Part shown: positions 53,516-61,008 of the stretch, piece after piece
How the letters are laid out: each line of letters starts with the position of its first letter
Numbering within the stretch: position 1 is the first letter of the stretch
Assembly (NCBI RefSeq): GCF_014138285.1
Contig: NZ_JACGXN010000001.1
Span: 1 to 64,000, forward strand
Length of the DNA stretch: 64,000 nt
Reading direction: 5' to 3'
From: Phyllobacterium myrsinacearum
GTDB lineage: Bacteria; Pseudomonadota; Alphaproteobacteria; Rhizobiales; Rhizobiaceae
Notes under the pieces: generated by a model
Database searches by the model: none
Seen by the model: only the letters and a program-made list of their open reading frames with translations
What the model was told of the DNA's origin: nothing
Translations under genes and position numbers: made by a program

Positions 53516-54421
53516 TCACTGCAATTGGGGCTTTTTGAGAAAGTTGTTGCGATCCGCTGATTTTATACGCAGCCAAGCTTCACGTCCGTTGCGCAGGACT
53601 CTCAGTGGGATTTCTGCTCCCGCGGGGCCGCTCGTCCATACCTTCCGGTAGAAATCAGCCAATCCATCCACCTGATAACCCCGGATTTCCGAGATGATGT
53701 CACCCTGACGCAAGCCAGCCTGTGCTGCCGGACCATCCTGGGTAACGCTCATAACCACAACTTTGCCGTTGCTCTCTCCGGAGAAAGCTCCAAGCCAGGG
53801 TCGCGGAGGTTTGTTGACCTGTCCACGCGTCAGGAGATCATCAAGGATCGGCGGCAACAGATTGATGGGCACCACCATATTGACATCCGCGATTTGGCCC
53901 TCCCTTGCCATTTGCAGGCGAAGGGAACCGACGCCCAAGAGCTTGCCGTCCGCATCGAGCAAGGCGGCCCCTCCCCAGGAAGGATGCGCAGGCGCAATAA
54001 AGATTGCTTCGTTCAGGACATACTCCCAGTAGCCAGCAAATTCCTGTTTCGCGACTATATGCGCATGCACCGTCTGGCCGATCCCGTCGGCAAACAAAAC
54101 GGGATCTCCTACTTTGGCTTCCGCAGCATCACCAAAGTCCACAGCGGCAACGTCAAGTGGTCCGAGCGCTTGCACCAGACCAAATCCAGACTCTTGATCG
54201 TAGGCAAGAGCGTGACCCGGAATGACTTTCCCGTCATGGCGAGTCAACCACACCTCTTCAGCTTCAGTGATCAGATAGCCGATTGTAAGCACCAGCCCGT
54301 CTTCCCTGATGACCACGCCGCTGCCCTCTCTCAGGGTGCCCAAGGTCGTGGCTGTGAAAGCGTCATCAGGAATTGCGGTGCGCACGGCGACAATGGATGG
54401 CAGAATCGGGTCGGTATTCAT
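53516..54421 (-). CDS. HtrA-fold protein with a destroyed catalytic triad and PDZ domain
   Basis: A 301-residue protein with the trypsin-like fold of HtrA (GSGVVIREDGLVLTIGYLI) and a C-terminal PDZ domain (PWLGAFSGES, then DGPAAQAGLRQGDIISEIRGYQVDG). The expected triad is lost: the His position reads TIGYL (Tyr49), the Asp region reads ESGFGLV and the Ser region reads HPSWGGAAL (Trp149 instead of Ser). No signal peptide is visible, so it is probably cytosolic. It is best regarded as a pseudoprotease that may bind peptides through PDZ. The LysR gene of the phosphonate cluster begins on the same strand upstream. Confidence 0.85.
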   Translation of the reverse strand: MNTDPILPSIVAVRTAIPDDAFTATTLGTLREGSGVVIREDGLVLTIGYLITEAEEVWLTRHDGKVIPGHALAYDQESGFGLVQALGPLDVAAVDFGDAAEAKVGDPVLFADGIGQTVHAHIVAKQEFAGYWEYVLNEAIFIAPAHPSWGGAALLDADGKLLGVGSLRLQMAREGQIADVNMVVPINLLPPILDDLLTRGQVNKPPRPWLGAFSGESNGKVVVMSVTQDGPAAQAGLRQGDIISEIRGYQVDGLADFYRKVWTSGPAGAEIPLRVLRNGREAWLRIKSADRNNFLKKPQLQ

Positions 54422-54425
54422 GGCT

Positions 54426-55307
54426 TCAATCCTTGTCTTTCACCGAGGCAAGAAATGCATCGATTTTACGGGAGTATTGCCTGTCGGCAAGGCAGGCGAC
54501 GCGATATTCCGTGGCAATCTTGGCATCACTGATGCGGATCGTGGAAAGCCGCGGATGTGCCACGAACTCAAAGTCCGCAACGACGCCGATGCCGAGTCCA
54601 CGTTCTACCGCCTTCCAGACCCCTTCCCGGCTGCCAATCTCGAGAAACGGTGCGATTATAACATTGGCTTTAGCTGCAACTTCTTCAAGAGCTCGGCGGG
54701 TCGTCGACCCTGTTTCACGCAATATGAGGCGCTGATCCTCCAGTTCCCTGATCCTTATTGTTTCGCGGCCATGCCAGGGGTGATCTTCGTTTACAAACAC
54801 GACCACTTCATGCGTGCTGAACGGCACCGAATAAATACGGTTGTCATCCACCATGTGCGCGACGATGGCCACATCCGCTTCGAGGTCCAGCAACCGCGTG
54901 AGACTTTGATGCGAATTCCCCAGCAGCATCGTTATCTTGATGGCGGGATAGCGCGCTAGAAAGCGGGACACCATCTCGGTCGCATGAAACGGTCCCACAG
55001 CAGCAATCCGAAGGTGACCTGTCGTGAGCTGTCCGCTGCTTGATAGGAGCTCCTCTGCATCCTCGTGCAGTTTGATGATCCTTGAACTTATCTCGAAAAG
55101 AGCCTTGCCTGAATCCGTCAGTTCGACGCGGCGGCCCTGCCGCAGGAACAGCTCAACGCCGTAGCGTTCTTCCAGCTCTCTAACCTGTGATGTCACGGTC
55201 GGCTGGCTGACATTCATAGCTTTGGCGGCCGCGGTAAAACCATGATGCTGGGCAACCGCATGAAAAGACCGAAGGTGGGTGAAAACAACAGCCATTCGCG
55301 TAAGCAC
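54426..55307 (-). CDS. LysR-family regulator of the phosphonate operon
   Basis: A 293-residue LysR with helix-turn-helix HHGFTAAAKAMNVSQPTVTSQVRELEE, followed by an effector domain (AAVGPFHATEMVSRF). It resembles LysR proteins found beside phosphonate genes. It is divergent from the Fe-alcohol dehydrogenase, with 140 bases between the starts containing a CCTAT-CC-ATAGG palindrome. Phosphonate or intermediate sensing is inferred from context. ATG 55295 is an alternative start. Confidence 0.88.
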   Translation of the reverse strand: MLTRMAVVFTHLRSFHAVAQHHGFTAAAKAMNVSQPTVTSQVRELEERYGVELFLRQGRRVELTDSGKALFEISSRIIKLHEDAEELLSSSGQLTTGHLRIAAVGPFHATEMVSRFLARYPAIKITMLLGNSHQSLTRLLDLEADVAIVAHMVDDNRIYSVPFSTHEVVVFVNEDHPWHGRETIRIRELEDQRLILRETGSTTRRALEEVAAKANVIIAPFLEIGSREGVWKAVERGLGIGVVADFEFVAHPRLSTIRISDAKIATEYRVACLADRQYSRKIDAFLASVKDKD

Positions 55308-55338
55308 TCCATTGGAACAGGTCCAGGAATATCCTACC

Positions 55339-55350
55339 CCTATCCATAGG
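55339..55350. promoter_or_regulatory. Possible LysR operator (CCTATCCATAGG)
   Basis: A perfect inverted repeat with a two-base centre in the divergent gap between the LysR gene and the Fe-alcohol dehydrogenase. LysR sites are typically T-N11-A imperfect palindromes, so this is a plausible but unproven site. Confidence 0.35.
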
Positions 55351-55446
55351 ATTTTTCAATGAGTTCCGTTGAAACTATCAATTGGACATATGGACCGATG
55401 CATCTTTCTATTGAACCTTCGAAAACCACTATCAAGGAATGGTTCA

Positions 55447-56550
55447 ATGTCGTGGAAATATGCGAACCCGGTCGATATCAGTTTTGGCGAGGGAATGTTC
55501 TCCTCCATCGGGCAGAAACTGCAGGGCCGCAGCTACTGCCTGCTGACGTACAACGATCATCCGATGTTCGACGAACTGGTCGTCCGCGCAACCCGTGAAG
55601 CCGGACCACCCGTGGTCATTGTCAGGGATGTTGAGCCCAATCCCAGCTTCAATGGTCTGCGCCTCGCTTGCAAATCATTCGGCACCAGCACCGTTGCTCC
55701 CGAAGTTATCGTGGCCATAGGCGGCGGTTCCGTCATCGATACGGCAAAAGTGCTTGCAGCGTCCGGTGGTGATTTCGAACGCGTTCAAGCCTTCCTTGAA
55801 GGTCGCGCTGGCGTCGAGACCCTGCTCAATCTTCCCATCATCGCAGTGCCGACAACATCCGGCACCGGAAGCGAAGTTACCTGCTGGGCCACCGTATGGG
55901 ATACTGAAAACAAGAAGAAATACTCCCTTGCTCATCCCAACCTCTATCCCCAACACGCCATCCTTGATCCGCAACTCAGCGTCGGCGTACCCCGCGCCCT
56001 CACGCTGAGCACGGGTCTCGACGCGCTCTCGCATGCGCTCGAAAGCATCTGGAATGTCAATGCCAATCCGGTTTCCAGTAACCATGCGGTTTTTGCCGCG
56101 CAGGAGATATTGACGGTTCTGCCGCATCTGTTGGATAGGCTCGATGACATTACGCTGCGCGAACGGTTGGCGCGCGCCAGCCTGTTTGCCGGATTGGCGT
56201 TTTCAAACACCAAAACAGCTCTGGCTCATTCGCTCTCCTATTACCTGACACTGCATCACGGGACGGTACATGGCATTGCCTGTTCGTTCAGCCTGCCGGC
56301 GATCTTCCGCAGTGTGATCGGCAATGATCCGGCATGCGACGCCGCATTGCAGCGGATATTCGGACAGGATCTCGGCAAGGGCGCACTGGCGCTCGAACAA
56401 TTCCTGACGGGTCTTGGCGTATCCACGACCGCGACCGACTACGGCGTTACCCAGGAAAACTGGATCGGAGCAATCAATGACGCACTCCTCGGCGAGCGGG
56501 GACGCAATTTCATCGGCAGCCGCGAAGCCATTCTGGCCGCCGCTGCGTAA
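55447..56550 (+). CDS. Iron-containing alcohol dehydrogenase, phosphonoacetaldehyde-related
   Basis: A 367-residue group III (iron-type) alcohol dehydrogenase. It has NAD-binding IVAIGGGSVIDTAKVLA, the PTTSGTGSEVT loop and metal ligands in TGLDALSHALES and TALAHSLSYYLTLHHGTVHG. It resembles phosphonoacetaldehyde reductases (PhpC/FomC-type). ATG 55447 with AAGGA upstream is the start; the open frame to the left is not conserved. It opens the operon followed by phnA, phnY and an MFS gene. In this catabolic context it could oxidise 2-hydroxyethylphosphonate to phosphonoacetaldehyde, the substrate of PhnY. Confidence 0.88.
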   Translation: MSWKYANPVDISFGEGMFSSIGQKLQGRSYCLLTYNDHPMFDELVVRATREAGPPVVIVRDVEPNPSFNGLRLACKSFGTSTVAPEVIVAIGGGSVIDTAKVLAASGGDFERVQAFLEGRAGVETLLNLPIIAVPTTSGTGSEVTCWATVWDTENKKKYSLAHPNLYPQHAILDPQLSVGVPRALTLSTGLDALSHALESIWNVNANPVSSNHAVFAAQEILTVLPHLLDRLDDITLRERLARASLFAGLAFSNTKTALAHSLSYYLTLHHGTVHGIACSFSLPAIFRSVIGNDPACDAALQRIFGQDLGKGALALEQFLTGLGVSTTATDYGVTQENWIGAINDALLGERGRNFIGSREAILAAAA

Positions 56551-56561
56551 GGAGCATCATC

Positions 56562-57812
56562 ATGAACACGTATTCCAAGATCAATTCCGAAGTGATCGTC
56601 AATGGGCGCACATACGGCAAGCCGGACAAGCCCGTTGTCGTCATTTGCCTCGACGGATCGGAGCCGGGTTATATCGAGGCGGCAATTGCGAAAGGACTGG
56701 CTCCTCACCTCGACCGCCTCATGAAGACGGGCACCAGCACCACAGCACTCTCCGTCATTCCAAGCTTCACCAACCCTAACAATTTGTCGATTATCACAGG
56801 CCGCCCACCAGCCGTTCATGGGATAGCCGGAAACTATTTCTACGACCGCGAGCAGGATCAGGAAGTCATGATGAATGATGCGCGGTTCCTGCGCGCGCCA
56901 ACCATTCTGGCGGAGTTCCAAAAGGCAGGCTTCCGGGTTGCGATGGTCACTGCGAAAGACAAGCTGCGCACGCTTCTCGGCAAGGGTCTCGACTTTTCCT
57001 CGGGCACAGCAATTGCGTTTTCTTCGGAGAAGGCTGACAAGGCCAATCTTCAGGACAACGGAATAGAGCACGTCCTCGCCTTTGTCGGTAAGCCGCTGCC
57101 AGAGGTTTACTCGGCCGATTTGTCCGAGTTCGTATTCGCTGCCGGGGTCGATCTCCTTGAGATCTTCAAACCTGATCTCATGTATCTTTCCACCACTGAC
57201 TACATCCAGCACAAGGCCGCTCCGGGTTCGAAAGTCGCGAACGACTTTTACGAAATGTTCGACCGCTATGTCGGCGCGTTGGATCGTGCAGGCTGCACGC
57301 TCTTGATCACAGCCGACCATGGCATGAACGACAAACACCTCGCCAACGGCGAACCGGACGTCATTTATCTTCAGGATATTCTCGATCAACGTTTTGGCTC
57401 TGGAACAACGCGCGTCATCCTCCCAATCACTGACCCTTATGTGGCGCATCATGGTGCGCTCGGTTCCTTTGCCACTGTTTATGCAGACGAAGACAAGTGT
57501 CCCGGCATCCTTGAATTGCTGAAGAATACACCCGGAATCGACGTCGCCATTTCCGCCGAAGAAGCCTGTGCACGGTTTGAACTTCCGGCTGACCGCATCG
57601 GCGACGTCGTTGTGCTGTCAACGCGCGAGAAAGTGCTCGGCACGACGGCCTCGCGTCACGATCTTTCCGGCCTGACCGAACCGTTGCGCTCCCATGGCGG
57701 TCTGACCGAACAGACGGTCCCGGTCATTTCGAACCGGAAAATCGCAGTTCCCGCGGGACGGCAACTTCGTAACTTTGATGCGTTCGATATAGCGCTCAAC
57801 CTCGTGAGATAA
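56562..57812 (+). CDS. phnA: Phosphonoacetate hydrolase
   Basis: A 416-residue metal hydrolase of the alkaline-phosphatase superfamily. The two-zinc site is visible: ICLDGSEPGY (Asp), PSFTNPNN (nucleophile Thr), STTDYIQHK (Asp and His), ITADHGMND (Asp-His) and SHGGLTEQ (His). This fits phosphonoacetate hydrolase PhnA, which splits phosphonoacetate to acetate and phosphate, rather than phosphodiesterases. It starts 12 bases after the Fe-alcohol dehydrogenase stop and precedes phnY by three bases. Confidence 0.93.
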   Translation: MNTYSKINSEVIVNGRTYGKPDKPVVVICLDGSEPGYIEAAIAKGLAPHLDRLMKTGTSTTALSVIPSFTNPNNLSIITGRPPAVHGIAGNYFYDREQDQEVMMNDARFLRAPTILAEFQKAGFRVAMVTAKDKLRTLLGKGLDFSSGTAIAFSSEKADKANLQDNGIEHVLAFVGKPLPEVYSADLSEFVFAAGVDLLEIFKPDLMYLSTTDYIQHKAAPGSKVANDFYEMFDRYVGALDRAGCTLLITADHGMNDKHLANGEPDVIYLQDILDQRFGSGTTRVILPITDPYVAHHGALGSFATVYADEDKCPGILELLKNTPGIDVAISAEEACARFELPADRIGDVVVLSTREKVLGTTASRHDLSGLTEPLRSHGGLTEQTVPVISNRKIAVPAGRQLRNFDAFDIALNLVR

Positions 57813-57815
57813 ATC

Positions 57816-59267
57816 ATGAACGCAATCATCAAACCTGTATTTCGCCGCGAATCCATGCGCATCGCTGGCAAGCTCGTACAAACAGAAGACCAGATCGAGG
57901 TTTTGAACCCTTACGACAATTCCGTCGTCGGCACTGTGCCGGCCGCGCGGGCAGAACATGTCCGCGAAGCCTTTGTAAAAGCGAACGCCTTCAAACCGAA
58001 ACTCACGCGTTACGAGCGGCAGACGATTTTGCAACGTACGGCAGAACTTCTGCGGGACCGGCAACAGGATTTTGCCCGGCTCATTACGGCGGAATCCGGC
58101 CTGTGCTGGAAGGACTCCCTTTATGAAGCAACGCGAGCCTTCGATGTCTGGTCCTTTGCGGCTCAGCTGACAATCAAGGATGATGGCGAGATTTATTCCT
58201 GTGACATCTCGCCGAACGGCAAGTCGCGCAAGATCTATACGACACGGCTGCCGCTTCTGGGTGTTATTTCCGCCATCACGCCGTTCAATCATCCCCTCAA
58301 CATGGTGAGCCACAAGATTGCCCCGGCAATCGCCACCAACAACCGGGTCGTCCTGAAGCCCACGGAACTCACGCCGCTGACGGCGCTGGCTCTGGCGGAC
58401 GTGCTTTATGAGGCTGGCCTGCCCCCCGAGATGCTGTCGGTGGTCACAGGCAATCCATCCACGATGGGTGACGCCATGATCACCGATCCGAATGCCGATC
58501 TTGTGACATTCACCGGGTCCGTGCGCGTCGGCAAACATATTGCGGCGACAGCAGGCTACAAGCGCATCGTTCTCGAGCTTGGCGGCAATGATCCCCTTAT
58601 CGTCATGGAGGATGCCGATCTCGAGAAGGCTGCGGAACTGGCTGTAACGGGCGCCACAAAGAATTCGGGACAGCGGTGCACTGCAGTCAAACGCATTCTT
58701 GTCGTCGACAGTGTTGCTGATGCGTTTTCGAAACTTGTCGTTGAAAAGGCTCAGAAACTGAAATGTGGCAATCCCGCTGATCCGGATACGGATGTCGGGA
58801 CCGTTATCAATGAACGCTCGGCCGAACTGTTCGAACGCCGCGTCGAAGATGCACAGCGCTTCGGTGCCGAGGTACTGCATACGGCTCCGCGCCGCGGGGC
58901 GCTCTATGCCCCGACAGTTGTCGATCACGTCCCCTATGATTGCGAACTGGTTCGCGAGGAAACATTCGGGCCAGTCATCCCGATCGTCCGCTGCCCTGAC
59001 AATATCGCAGAGGTCATAAGAATTTCCAACTCGACGGCATACGGACTTTCATCGGGCGTCTGCACCAACCGGGTCGATTATGTCTCACGCTTTGTCAGTG
59101 AACTTGAAGTCGGCACGGTGAACATCTGGGAGGTCCCGGGCTACCGGATCGAGATGTCGCCGTTCGGCGGAATAAAGGACTCCGGCCTTGGCTACAAGGA
59201 AGGCGTTCACGAGGCAATGAAGAGCTTCACCAATGTGAGGACGTGGTCACTCCCCTGGGCATCATAG
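57816..59267 (+). CDS. phnY: Phosphonoacetaldehyde dehydrogenase
   Basis: A 483-residue aldehyde dehydrogenase. It has VNPYDN-like [30 protein letters not shown] (catalytic Asn), [29 protein letters not shown] (Glu) and the catalytic cysteine in [11 protein letters not shown]. PhnY oxidises phosphonoacetaldehyde to phosphonoacetate with NAD+. The phnA-phnY pair in S. meliloti does the same with PhnW upstream. Here PhnW is absent and an iron alcohol dehydrogenase takes its place. Confidence 0.92.
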
Positions 59268-59351
59268 CATCGGGGATCAACCAAACACCGACGTTGCCGC
59301 GAAGTGGGAACAGGAGGCTCCGCGCCAACGCATTCAAACTGGGAGGTAACA

Positions 59352-60659
59352 ATGAGCAAGGTGTTAGTAGATGCGCCGCATTTTGCGGTGGAGCAGGCAA
59401 CCGACAGCGGATTTCGAAGGGCACAGTGGCGAATGCTGCTGGCAGCAATGTTCTGCTATCTGTTCTTCTATACGGGCAGGCAGACGTTCGGCTTCGCAAT
59501 TCCCGGGATTCAGGCCGAATTCGGTGTTTCAAAGGAGACATTGGGCTGGGTCAGCGCGGCCATGCTCTGGAGCTATGCCGTCGGTCAGGCCATCAATGGC
59601 AATCTCGGCGACAAGTTCGGTGGCCGCCGCGTGATGAGCGCTGGGGCGATCCTCTCCTGCATCATGAACTGGGGAACGAGTTTCGCCGGCGGCGTGTTCA
59701 GTCTCGGCCTTCTTTGGGGTGCAAACGGCTATTTTCAGGCCATGGGTTGGGCCCCCGGAAGCCGTCTGCTATCCAATTGGTGGGGCCGACATGAACGCGG
59801 CAAGGTCTTTGGCTGTTATGTCTTCGCAGCGGGACTGGCCTCGGTGCTCTCTTACGTGACATCGCTGATCGTGGTGCATTATCTGCAGCTCGACTGGAGA
59901 TGGATTTTCCGTCTTCCCGTGCTGTTGCTTCTCGTTGGCGGCATTACGTTCTACCTCGTTGCCCGCGAACGCCCGGAAGATCTGGGTTACGCATCACCGC
60001 ACGACGATTCCATCGAGGGGGACGAAACCGGGGAAGTTGCCGACGATGAGACATCGCTTGAGCGCTACAAGGGTGTACTGAAGAACTGGCGATTACTGGT
60101 CGGCGGTTTGGCTATCGGTTTTCAGAACGCTGCTCGCTACGGCCTTCTCGTCTGGGTGCCGGTGCATTTTCTGGGCGAAGACTGGACCAAGGCAACGGCA
60201 CAAGCGTCAGCAATTGATCCCAAGTGGATCAGCGTTGCATTGCCCGTCGGAATGGCAATTGGTGCAGCGACCAATGGCTGGATATCGGATCGTGTCTTTA
60301 ACTCGAAGCGTTATCTTGCCATCGTTCTGTATATGGCATTGGCAGCCATTACCTCGCTTTACATGTATACCATACCGGTCTCGGAAGTTTACAAAGGCCT
60401 GGTTGTGCTCTTTCTGTGTGGCTTCTTTGTTTATGGACCGCAGTCTTCGTTCTGGGCGCTCTGCCCTGATCTGGTTGGTCATAAACGAGCAGGCACGGCA
60501 ATCGGTGTTATGAACTTTTTCGCCTACCTTTTCGCCGGTCTCGGCGAGCCGCTCATCGGCGGGTTCATGGACACGCACCACAATACGTCGTTGGTCTTCC
60601 TGATCGTGGCCGCCTCAAGTGCCGCCAGCGCTGTCGTGGCGGCATTTATAAGACGTTAG
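59352..60659 (+). CDS. MFS organophosphate-type permease (GlpT/UhpC-like)
   Basis: A 435-residue permease of the organophosphate antiporter branch. The start MSKVLVDAP at 59352 is preceded by GGGAGG; first span AAMFCYLFFYTGRQTFGFAIPG with the RQ/GRQ region typical of GlpT/UhpT. The half-repeat loop contains GDKFGGRRVM and a later GWISDRVFNSKR. These carriers exchange phosphate for small phosphate esters. Last in the phosphonate operon, it is the only transporter, so it probably imports the phosphonate in place of PhnCDE. Confidence 0.87.
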   Translation: MSKVLVDAPHFAVEQATDSGFRRAQWRMLLAAMFCYLFFYTGRQTFGFAIPGIQAEFGVSKETLGWVSAAMLWSYAVGQAINGNLGDKFGGRRVMSAGAILSCIMNWGTSFAGGVFSLGLLWGANGYFQAMGWAPGSRLLSNWWGRHERGKVFGCYVFAAGLASVLSYVTSLIVVHYLQLDWRWIFRLPVLLLLVGGITFYLVARERPEDLGYASPHDDSIEGDETGEVADDETSLERYKGVLKNWRLLVGGLAIGFQNAARYGLLVWVPVHFLGEDWTKATAQASAIDPKWISVALPVGMAIGAATNGWISDRVFNSKRYLAIVLYMALAAITSLYMYTIPVSEVYKGLVVLFLCGFFVYGPQSSFWALCPDLVGHKRAGTAIGVMNFFAYLFAGLGEPLIGGFMDTHHNTSLVFLIVAASSAASAVVAAFIRR

Positions 60660-60697
60660 CAAAACGTCAGAGCGTCGTAGACGGTATCTGATTTGCA

Positions 60698-60731
60698 GAA
60701 GCCGCGGTCAACAGATGTTGATCGCGGCTTC
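60698..60731 (+). terminator. Strong hairpin after the phosphonate operon
   Basis: GAAGCCGCGGTCAAC pairs with GTTGATCGCGGCTTC with one mismatch around AGAT, 38 bases after the MFS stop. It is followed by CCCC rather than a T-run. Confidence 0.55.
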
Positions 60732-60840
60732 CCCTTGTCCGTCGCAGCGGCACGACATGCTGGCTAGCCGAGCGAGGCGCGCAAAACATCACGCGATACT
60801 GCGGAATTCATCTGGAAGTTTCTGTGCCGAATTTTGATAC

Positions 60841-60880
60841 AAAAAGGCCGGTCTCAGACATTCCGAGACCGGCCCTTTTT
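60841..60880. terminator. Bidirectional Rho-independent terminator
   Basis: GGCCGGTCTC and GAGACCGGCC form a 10-bp perfect stem around nine bases, flanked by A5 on the left and T5 on the right. It separates the phosphonate operon from the tRNA-Pro gene. Confidence 0.88.
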
Positions 60881-60931
60881 GGAAATAGACGAATTAACTA
60901 CTCTAACATCTTGTTTTAGCTAGGTAGTTAT

Positions 60932-61008
<77 letters not shown>

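Follow-up and report, generated by a model that had tools for sequence, protein, structure and literature searches.

In the PhnWAY pathway of Sinorhizobium meliloti, 2-aminoethylphosphonate is transaminated by PhnW to phosphonoacetaldehyde, which PhnY oxidises to phosphonoacetate and PhnA cleaves to acetate and phosphate. Among C2 sulfonates, isethionate catabolism proceeds by oxidation of an alcohol to the aldehyde that is also given by taurine. The stretch of DNA analysed here, 64,000 nucleotides of Phyllobacterium myrsinacearum (positions 1 to 64,000 of contig NZ_JACGXN010000001.1, assembly GCF_014138285.1; the window), was confirmed to carry a five-gene phosphonate operon that includes a gene for an iron-containing alcohol dehydrogenase (Fe-ADH) and is devoid of phnW (Table 1). 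It shares with PhnWAY the PhnY and PhnA steps from phosphonoacetaldehyde, with both curated families matched, and a LysR gene nearby. It differs in its proposed entry, which would be an alcohol oxidation and not a transamination, and in having a major facilitator superfamily (MFS) carrier instead of the ATP-binding cassette (ABC) importer of the phnW-containing cluster found on contig C5 of the same genome. The operon is probably a self-contained, LysR-controlled module for the use of 2-hydroxyethylphosphonate (HEP), by a route that would be analogous to isethionate catabolism but acts on a phosphonate instead of a sulfonate.

PbfA, PbfC, PbfD and PbfF are likewise feeder enzymes, through which other phosphonates enter the breakdown of phosphonoacetaldehyde, but they belong to other protein families and have other substrates; identity of the Fe-ADH with PbfF (HAEP racemase) was ruled out, as PbfF is a pfam02826 protein. 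Another replacement of PhnW, the putative flavin oxidase HpnW, is described for phosphonatase operons in the available part of PMC11203657. HEP and its esters form part of the marine dissolved organic matter phosphonate pool according to the accessible portions of PMC5649143 and PMC9381506, the former also reporting HEP use by carbon-phosphorus (C-P) lyase with release of ethylene; where HEP breakdown was found described, it was by this enzyme. No HEP dehydrogenase was found described in the open-access literature as far as its text was available, and the term 'HEP dehydrogenase' occurred in PMC12366243 alone; there, HEP oxidation by PbfF was considered, tested and excluded, and the Results do not deal with the Fe-ADH considered here. 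Words starting with 'HEP' or 'hydroxyethylphosphonate' are absent from the accessible text of a 2023 review (PMC10574752). TIGR03405 (Phn_Fe-ADH), the family of the window Fe-ADH, is already tied to phosphonates by its model name, its title giving no reaction. The NCBI name 'PsrA' was not found for a phosphonate enzyme in the open-access text available, and may rest on work outside it.

Profile matches placed all five genes where the original prediction had put them, with LysR divergent and the Fe-ADH gene opening the operon, while the starts of the long open reading frames were revised for two genes, the ATG codons at the first positions listed in Table 1 being likelier for the Fe-ADH and the carrier. 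PhnA and PhnY, which had been read from their catalytic motifs, are both above their cut-offs. PhnA can be aligned over its full length with the solved structure 3szy, a phosphonoacetate hydrolase, and PhnY likewise with 4i3t, deposited under the name aldehyde dehydrogenase. We take 4i3t to be S. meliloti PhnY, and the catalytic motifs of both window proteins are presumably in place. The Fe-ADH matched TIGR03405 over the whole model with 422.0 bits and missed the cut-off of 423.7 by 1.7 bits, so that the equivalog name is not claimed; the protein falls inside a clade (described below) that holds members above this cut-off. Residues D192, H196, H261 and H275 (Met 55447 = 1), which we take to be the Asp, His, His and His metal ligands of Fe-ADHs, are invariant in 12 of 12 aligned Fe-ADH rows and are among the universal columns of a wider alignment. 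The carrier had been called organophosphate-type, and its best match was indeed TIGR00881 (PgtP/OPA type), at 197.6 bits far under the curated 407.75; it resembles the OPA type and is no named member of the family. Ribosome sites were seen by eye before the Fe-ADH, PhnA and MFS starts, and gaps of 11 and 3 bases separate the first three genes.

Table 1 Features of the phosphonate operon in the window.
Feature	Position	Strand	Match or remark
LysR-type regulator, phn_lysR-like, divergent	54426..55307	-	TIGR03339 phn_lysR 314.9 bits, cut-off 341.1
Conserved element CTATCAATTGGACATATG, candidate LysR activation site (putative function)	55375..55392	+	overlap with -35 region, by eye
Fe-ADH, iron-containing alcohol dehydrogenase, TIGR03405-like (NCBI 'PsrA')	55447..56550	+	proposed HEP dehydrogenase
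phnA, phosphonoacetate hydrolase	56562..57812	+	TIGR02335 542.3 bits, cut-off 408 passed
phnY, phosphonoacetaldehyde dehydrogenase	57816..59267	+	TIGR03250 792.5 bits, cut-off 636 passed
MFS carrier, organophosphate type, proposed C2-phosphonate importer	59352..60659	+	TIGR00881, GlpT below cut-off; PF07690

The same order, with LysR divergent from Fe-ADH-PhnA-PhnY-MFS, was found again in Ensifer sp. PDNC004 and in two further surveyed genomes, G889 and G644. In Ensifer and G889 the four operon proteins are 79-90% identical to those of the window and the LysR at the matching place is 74% identical; as the order recurs in these two, the operon is not a chance assembly.

The absence of PhnW, on which the original prediction was built, holds for the operon and not for the genome (5.97 Mb in 40 contigs, stated completeness 99.86%). 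A whole-genome profile search disclosed one PhnW above the cut-off of 401, at C5:22838-23911 with 477 bits, six further matches lying far below; a genome without PhnW was thereby ruled out. Around this gene, the C5 cluster comprises a DeoR-type regulator (so labelled by eye), an 825-residue FAD/GcvT protein, LysR, PhnA, PhnY and an ABC importer. The C-P lyase gene phnJ is on contig C2, and PhnX had no match in the genome by profile search. Since phnW sits in a cluster of its own on C5, the window operon is a second, phnW-free set in a genome that has both PhnWAY and C-P lyase. A recent copying of the C5 cluster was also ruled out, as the two copies are only 61% (PhnA) and 66% (PhnY) identical and the PhnA copies fall in different branches; the two LysR proteins are 33% identical. 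In the PhnA tree (32 rows, the label 'far' including short stretches with PhnW out of reach), the window PhnA falls into one group (99/99) with five further copies linked to Fe-ADH, and a second group (99/99) unites the C5 PhnA, six more PhnW-linked copies and the copy from Leisingera, which is Fe-ADH-linked. By this tree, the operon PhnA is a lineage separate from the PhnA beside phnW on C5, and in G889 the two lineages are paired in the same way.

Relatives of the Fe-ADH were surveyed with TIGR03405 at E <= 1e-60. Of 385 genomes sampled from the class, 12 had a match, as had 17 of 398 from the phylum and 9 of 199 from the family, the own genome being counted in each sample; neither of the two congeneric genomes sampled gave a match at this threshold. 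Ten likely family members (L039-L048) were added from at least 80 loci matching general Fe-ADH patterns, together with eight of nine plasmid records, a second Vibrio pelagius record being left out. Six further of the at least 80 loci listed and three other Fe-ADHs of the own genome were tried as outgroup, and eight of these nine were kept (L004 was without match); L056, L103, L116 and L117 were compared with the window proteins only. Genes in GC-rich loci were called hits-first. The resulting tree (63 rows, IQ-TREE, LG+G4) contains a single 41-row clade, supported at 98/99, which holds the window Fe-ADH and none of the seven pepM-adjacent copies. All seven are placed outside it but inside a wider branch of 51 rows (100/97), to which L038 and two Lachnospiraceae outgroup rows belong as well, so that the tree parts a catabolic clade from the pepM-linked copies. 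On the tree the pepM label needs one change against the three catabolic labels (other rows uncounted) and three against all other rows, and the PhnX label three. The deep order is unsure, because no branch sets the outgroup apart on a single side, some branches were flagged as long, and L138 and L139 are 295-residue pepM pieces on a long branch.

Inside the clade, whose compared stretches are of unequal length (5.8 to 19 kb), PhnA and PhnY are neighbours of the Fe-ADH in 14 of 41 rows and PhnX in seven, and the downstream enzymes thus interchange. Importers vary as well: a PhnDCE-type importer is present in 22 of the 41 loci and the MFS carrier in eight including the window, the seven others being 64-88% identical to it. 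Variovorax PDNC026 has the reordered set Fe-ADH-MFS-PhnA-PhnY; in Leisingera, G576 and Boseaceae BT-24-1 the Fe-ADH is separated from PhnA by PhnDCE, and such an MFS carrier is missing; Acinetobacter ANC 3813 and G436 show Fe-ADH-MFS-LysR-PhnX, and Comamonas, Pantoea, G453 and G556 show PhnDCE-Fe-ADH-PhnX. One of the 14 PhnA and PhnY rows (L036:8895-12692, from the 1.2 Mb genome G375) has the place of PhnY held by another aldehyde dehydrogenase, which lies between PhnA and Fe-ADH, is nearest to betaine-aldehyde models and is 28% identical to PhnY; PhnW was not found in this genome at 1e-60.

Co-occurrence was analysed in 46 genomes, namely 36 surveyed ones and the ten behind L039-L048, the hosts of the eight plasmid records being left out; 33 of them hold a clade Fe-ADH. 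Four families were searched: PhnA (E <= 1e-40), PhnX (E <= 1e-20), PhnW (1e-60) and PepM. PhnA was present in 26 genomes, one match being partial (405 against the cut-off of 408), and PhnX in eight. One or both of them occurred in all 33 clade genomes and in none of the 13 others (Fisher p ~1e-11, kinship uncorrected). Likewise, in the class sample PhnA was present in 44 of 385 genomes and in 10 of 10 with a clade Fe-ADH (p ~1e-10, kinship uncorrected), both Fe-ADH matches outside the clade being without PhnA. PhnW was undetected at 1e-60 in ten of the 33 clade genomes (G576, G644, G337, G375, G453, G556, G932, G935, G937 and G939), of which six have a stated completeness of 94-100% and four, reached through loci, have no such figure. 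Nine of the ten carry PhnA or PhnX in the Fe-ADH stretch, within about 4 kb, and the tenth carries PhnY.

The Fe-ADH thus pairs with PhnX or with PhnY-PhnA even where PhnW was not found, and as both consume phosphonoacetaldehyde, it is best read as a source of this compound; with phosphonoacetaldehyde as its product, HEP should be its substrate. The originally predicted route is in this way supported by the comparative evidence, its chemistry, that is, substrate, direction and cofactor, being inferred from sequence, as are the compound transported and the inducer. HEP, and possibly other C2 phosphonates such as phosphonoacetate, would be imported by the MFS carrier; the Fe-ADH would oxidise HEP with NAD(P)+ to phosphonoacetaldehyde, and PhnY would take this on to phosphonoacetate and so pull the unfavourable first step, after which PhnA would release acetate and phosphate. 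The module would operate alongside the genome's PhnWAY pathway for 2-aminoethylphosphonate without replacing it, that pathway being served by a separate regulator and importer.

The same compound pair is shared with the PhpC-type reductases of phosphonate biosynthesis, members of the same superfamily for which the direction is opposite to that proposed here. It is very improbable, in our judgement, that the window Fe-ADH is itself a PhpC-like phosphonoacetaldehyde reductase, acting with PhnW to turn 2-aminoethylphosphonate into HEP for cell products. Ten residues (T149, W151, S160, L191, W202, N203, T257, Y265, T268 and C279, Met 55447 = 1) are invariant (100%) across the 41 clade and the seven pepM-linked Fe-ADHs and occur in 0-14% of 14 other Fe-ADHs (L038, of unclear context, being left out of the count), and seven of the ten lie at most seven residues from a metal ligand. 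Such a signature common to both groups counts in support of the HEP route and speaks for the reductive direction as well, though common descent by itself could account for some of it. A Vibrio member carries the name phosphonoacetaldehyde reductase at NCBI, and the accessible part of Lockwood et al. 2022 (PMC9381506), where 53% of phpC genomes are without pepM, suggests conversion of 2-aminoethylphosphonate to HEP and proposes the reductive direction for phpC in catabolic operons. PhnW, required for such a conversion, is present at 1e-60 in 23 of the 33 clade genomes but undetected in the other ten. PepM is above its cut-off in only four of the 33 (G938, G087, G885 and G936) and has no match at 1e-20 in the own genome, so that the PhpC-type biosynthetic context is missing there. 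Furthermore, all seven pepM-linked copies are outside the clade, in a tree built without a characterised PhpC, and the PhnY and PhnA of the window operon would consume the very aldehyde that a reductase needs.

Several observations weigh against the HEP route. Besides the presence of PhnW in 23 clade genomes, one locus among the 41 (L165) encodes this enzyme inside the Fe-ADH stretch, and in G378, G602 and G794 it is encoded at a distance of about 12 kb from the Fe-ADH, so some copies may work with PhnW. Eleven of the 41 loci have a PhnDCE-type importer and no PhnA, PhnY or PhnX in the stretch; nine others have PhnY alone (one, L042) or none of the three (eight). The Fe-ADH-linked PhnA copies are scattered overall, the label requiring eight changes, at least three of them forced by starred branches, with 59 of 500 shuffles as low; on account of this scatter, the partnership of Fe-ADH and PhnA probably arose more than once. 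Nor is the MFS carrier specific for HEP by its context, as relatives of it occur with PhnA alone in Caballeronia and with an M20-type hydrolase in another Phyllobacterium. The former is encoded on a plasmid of Caballeronia sp. SBC2, typed mobilizable, with LysR, phnA and a 55% identical MFS carrier (L192:4679-8233), and the latter on a plasmid of Phyllobacterium sp. 628 with LysR, an M20-type metallohydrolase and a 66% identical carrier (L191:4524-8254), which is possibly an operon for an amide-linked phosphonate.

The Caballeronia stretch, in which neither Fe-ADH nor PhnY is annotated, is likely to be a phosphonoacetate operon; PhnA, carrier and LysR are together there as in the window, and presumably also in the phnA operon of Pseudomonas fluorescens 23F. 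On this model the window operon would serve mainly for import and cleavage of phosphonoacetate, with Fe-ADH and PhnY as secondary feeders, and PhnR of strain 23F does respond to phosphonoacetate according to the available part of a review. Such a role is held to be very improbable for the window, where the Fe-ADH gene comes first in the operon; the enzyme is kept in loci where PhnX replaces PhnA and PhnY, and PhnX is, to our knowledge, not known to use phosphonoacetate.

A different substrate of the Fe-ADH, either another hydroxylated phosphonate or the product of a phosphonate ester rather than free HEP, is given a slighter chance still. It could apply in G804 (L162:2764-9931), a further point against HEP as substrate, where the Fe-ADH ends a ugp-type run with a UgpB above the cut-off, an ABC ATPase, two unscanned open reading frames, a glycerophosphodiester phosphodiesterase and an SpdA-like phosphoesterase (metallophosphoesterase); this context suggests phosphonate ester use. 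An endonuclease/exonuclease/phosphatase-family (Exo_endo_phos) protein directly follows the Fe-ADH in G001 (L034:8562-10724), with an ABC ATPase before it. The esterases could equally free HEP, however, and PhnX and PhnY take phosphonoacetaldehyde, which the simple alcohol HEP gives by one oxidation.

Turning to regulation, an 18-base element, CTATCAATTGGACAWATG, was found upstream of the Fe-ADH with 18 of 18 positions in the window, Ensifer and G889, 16 of 18 in Leisingera and 14 of 18 in G280 and G358, and in each of these six loci none of 100 shuffles was as good. L042 has a 14 of 18 site with 2 of 100 shuffles as good, and the other 34 of the 41 loci gave no convincing copy, so that the element is clear in only six. 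The exact site occurs once in the own genome, and four sites were found at up to three mismatches, none near phnW at C5:22838, the reversed control pattern giving one; in the LysR-PhnW gap on C5 nothing resembling the element was seen by eye. A co-regulated phnW elsewhere had been named in the original prediction as a counter-indication. As far as sequence tells, there is none: the C5 gene is accompanied by a LysR, a PhnA and a PhnY of its own, and the absence of a visible shared operator faintly suggests that the window operon and the C5 phnW are not co-regulated. An inverted repeat upstream of the window Fe-ADH, ATCCTA-N10-TAGGAT, was not found in Ensifer or G889.

Taken beyond the window, the clade seems somewhat more apt than not to mark a hydrolytic HEP pathway widespread but scattered over Alpha-, Beta- and Gammaproteobacteria, some of them with genomes of 1.2-1.4 Mb, and undescribed in the open-access literature. 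It would combine the dedicated Fe-ADH with exchangeable partners, namely MFS, PhnCDE or a ugp-type ABC system for import and PhnX or PhnY-PhnA for cleavage. Both the phosphorus and the carbon of HEP would be recovered, and as C-P lyase would take no part, no ethylene would be formed; in some genomes phosphodiesterases of the same operon would first free HEP from its esters. If true, a route specific for HEP and adjoined by a LysR gene would be a new entry into phosphonate hydrolysis as far as that literature goes; it would free carbon as well as phosphorus, and it need not depend on phosphate starvation. Survey counts of 'phpC' would then have to be reread, copies outside pepM clusters standing for HEP consumption and not production.

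The GC content over 55000-60999 is 0.54-0.58 in 1-kb steps, a composition without sign of an island. The LysR gene is adjoined by a gene for an HtrA-like protease (window 53516-54421), which has no evident link to the operon. The 825-residue FAD oxidoreductase of the C5 cluster, with FAO_M and GcvT domains, lies beside phnWAY (L014:5267-7744), and a 66% identical protein adjoins the Fe-ADH in G378 (L029:11049-13499); guessing from its domains, it may demethylate N-methylated aminoethylphosphonates.

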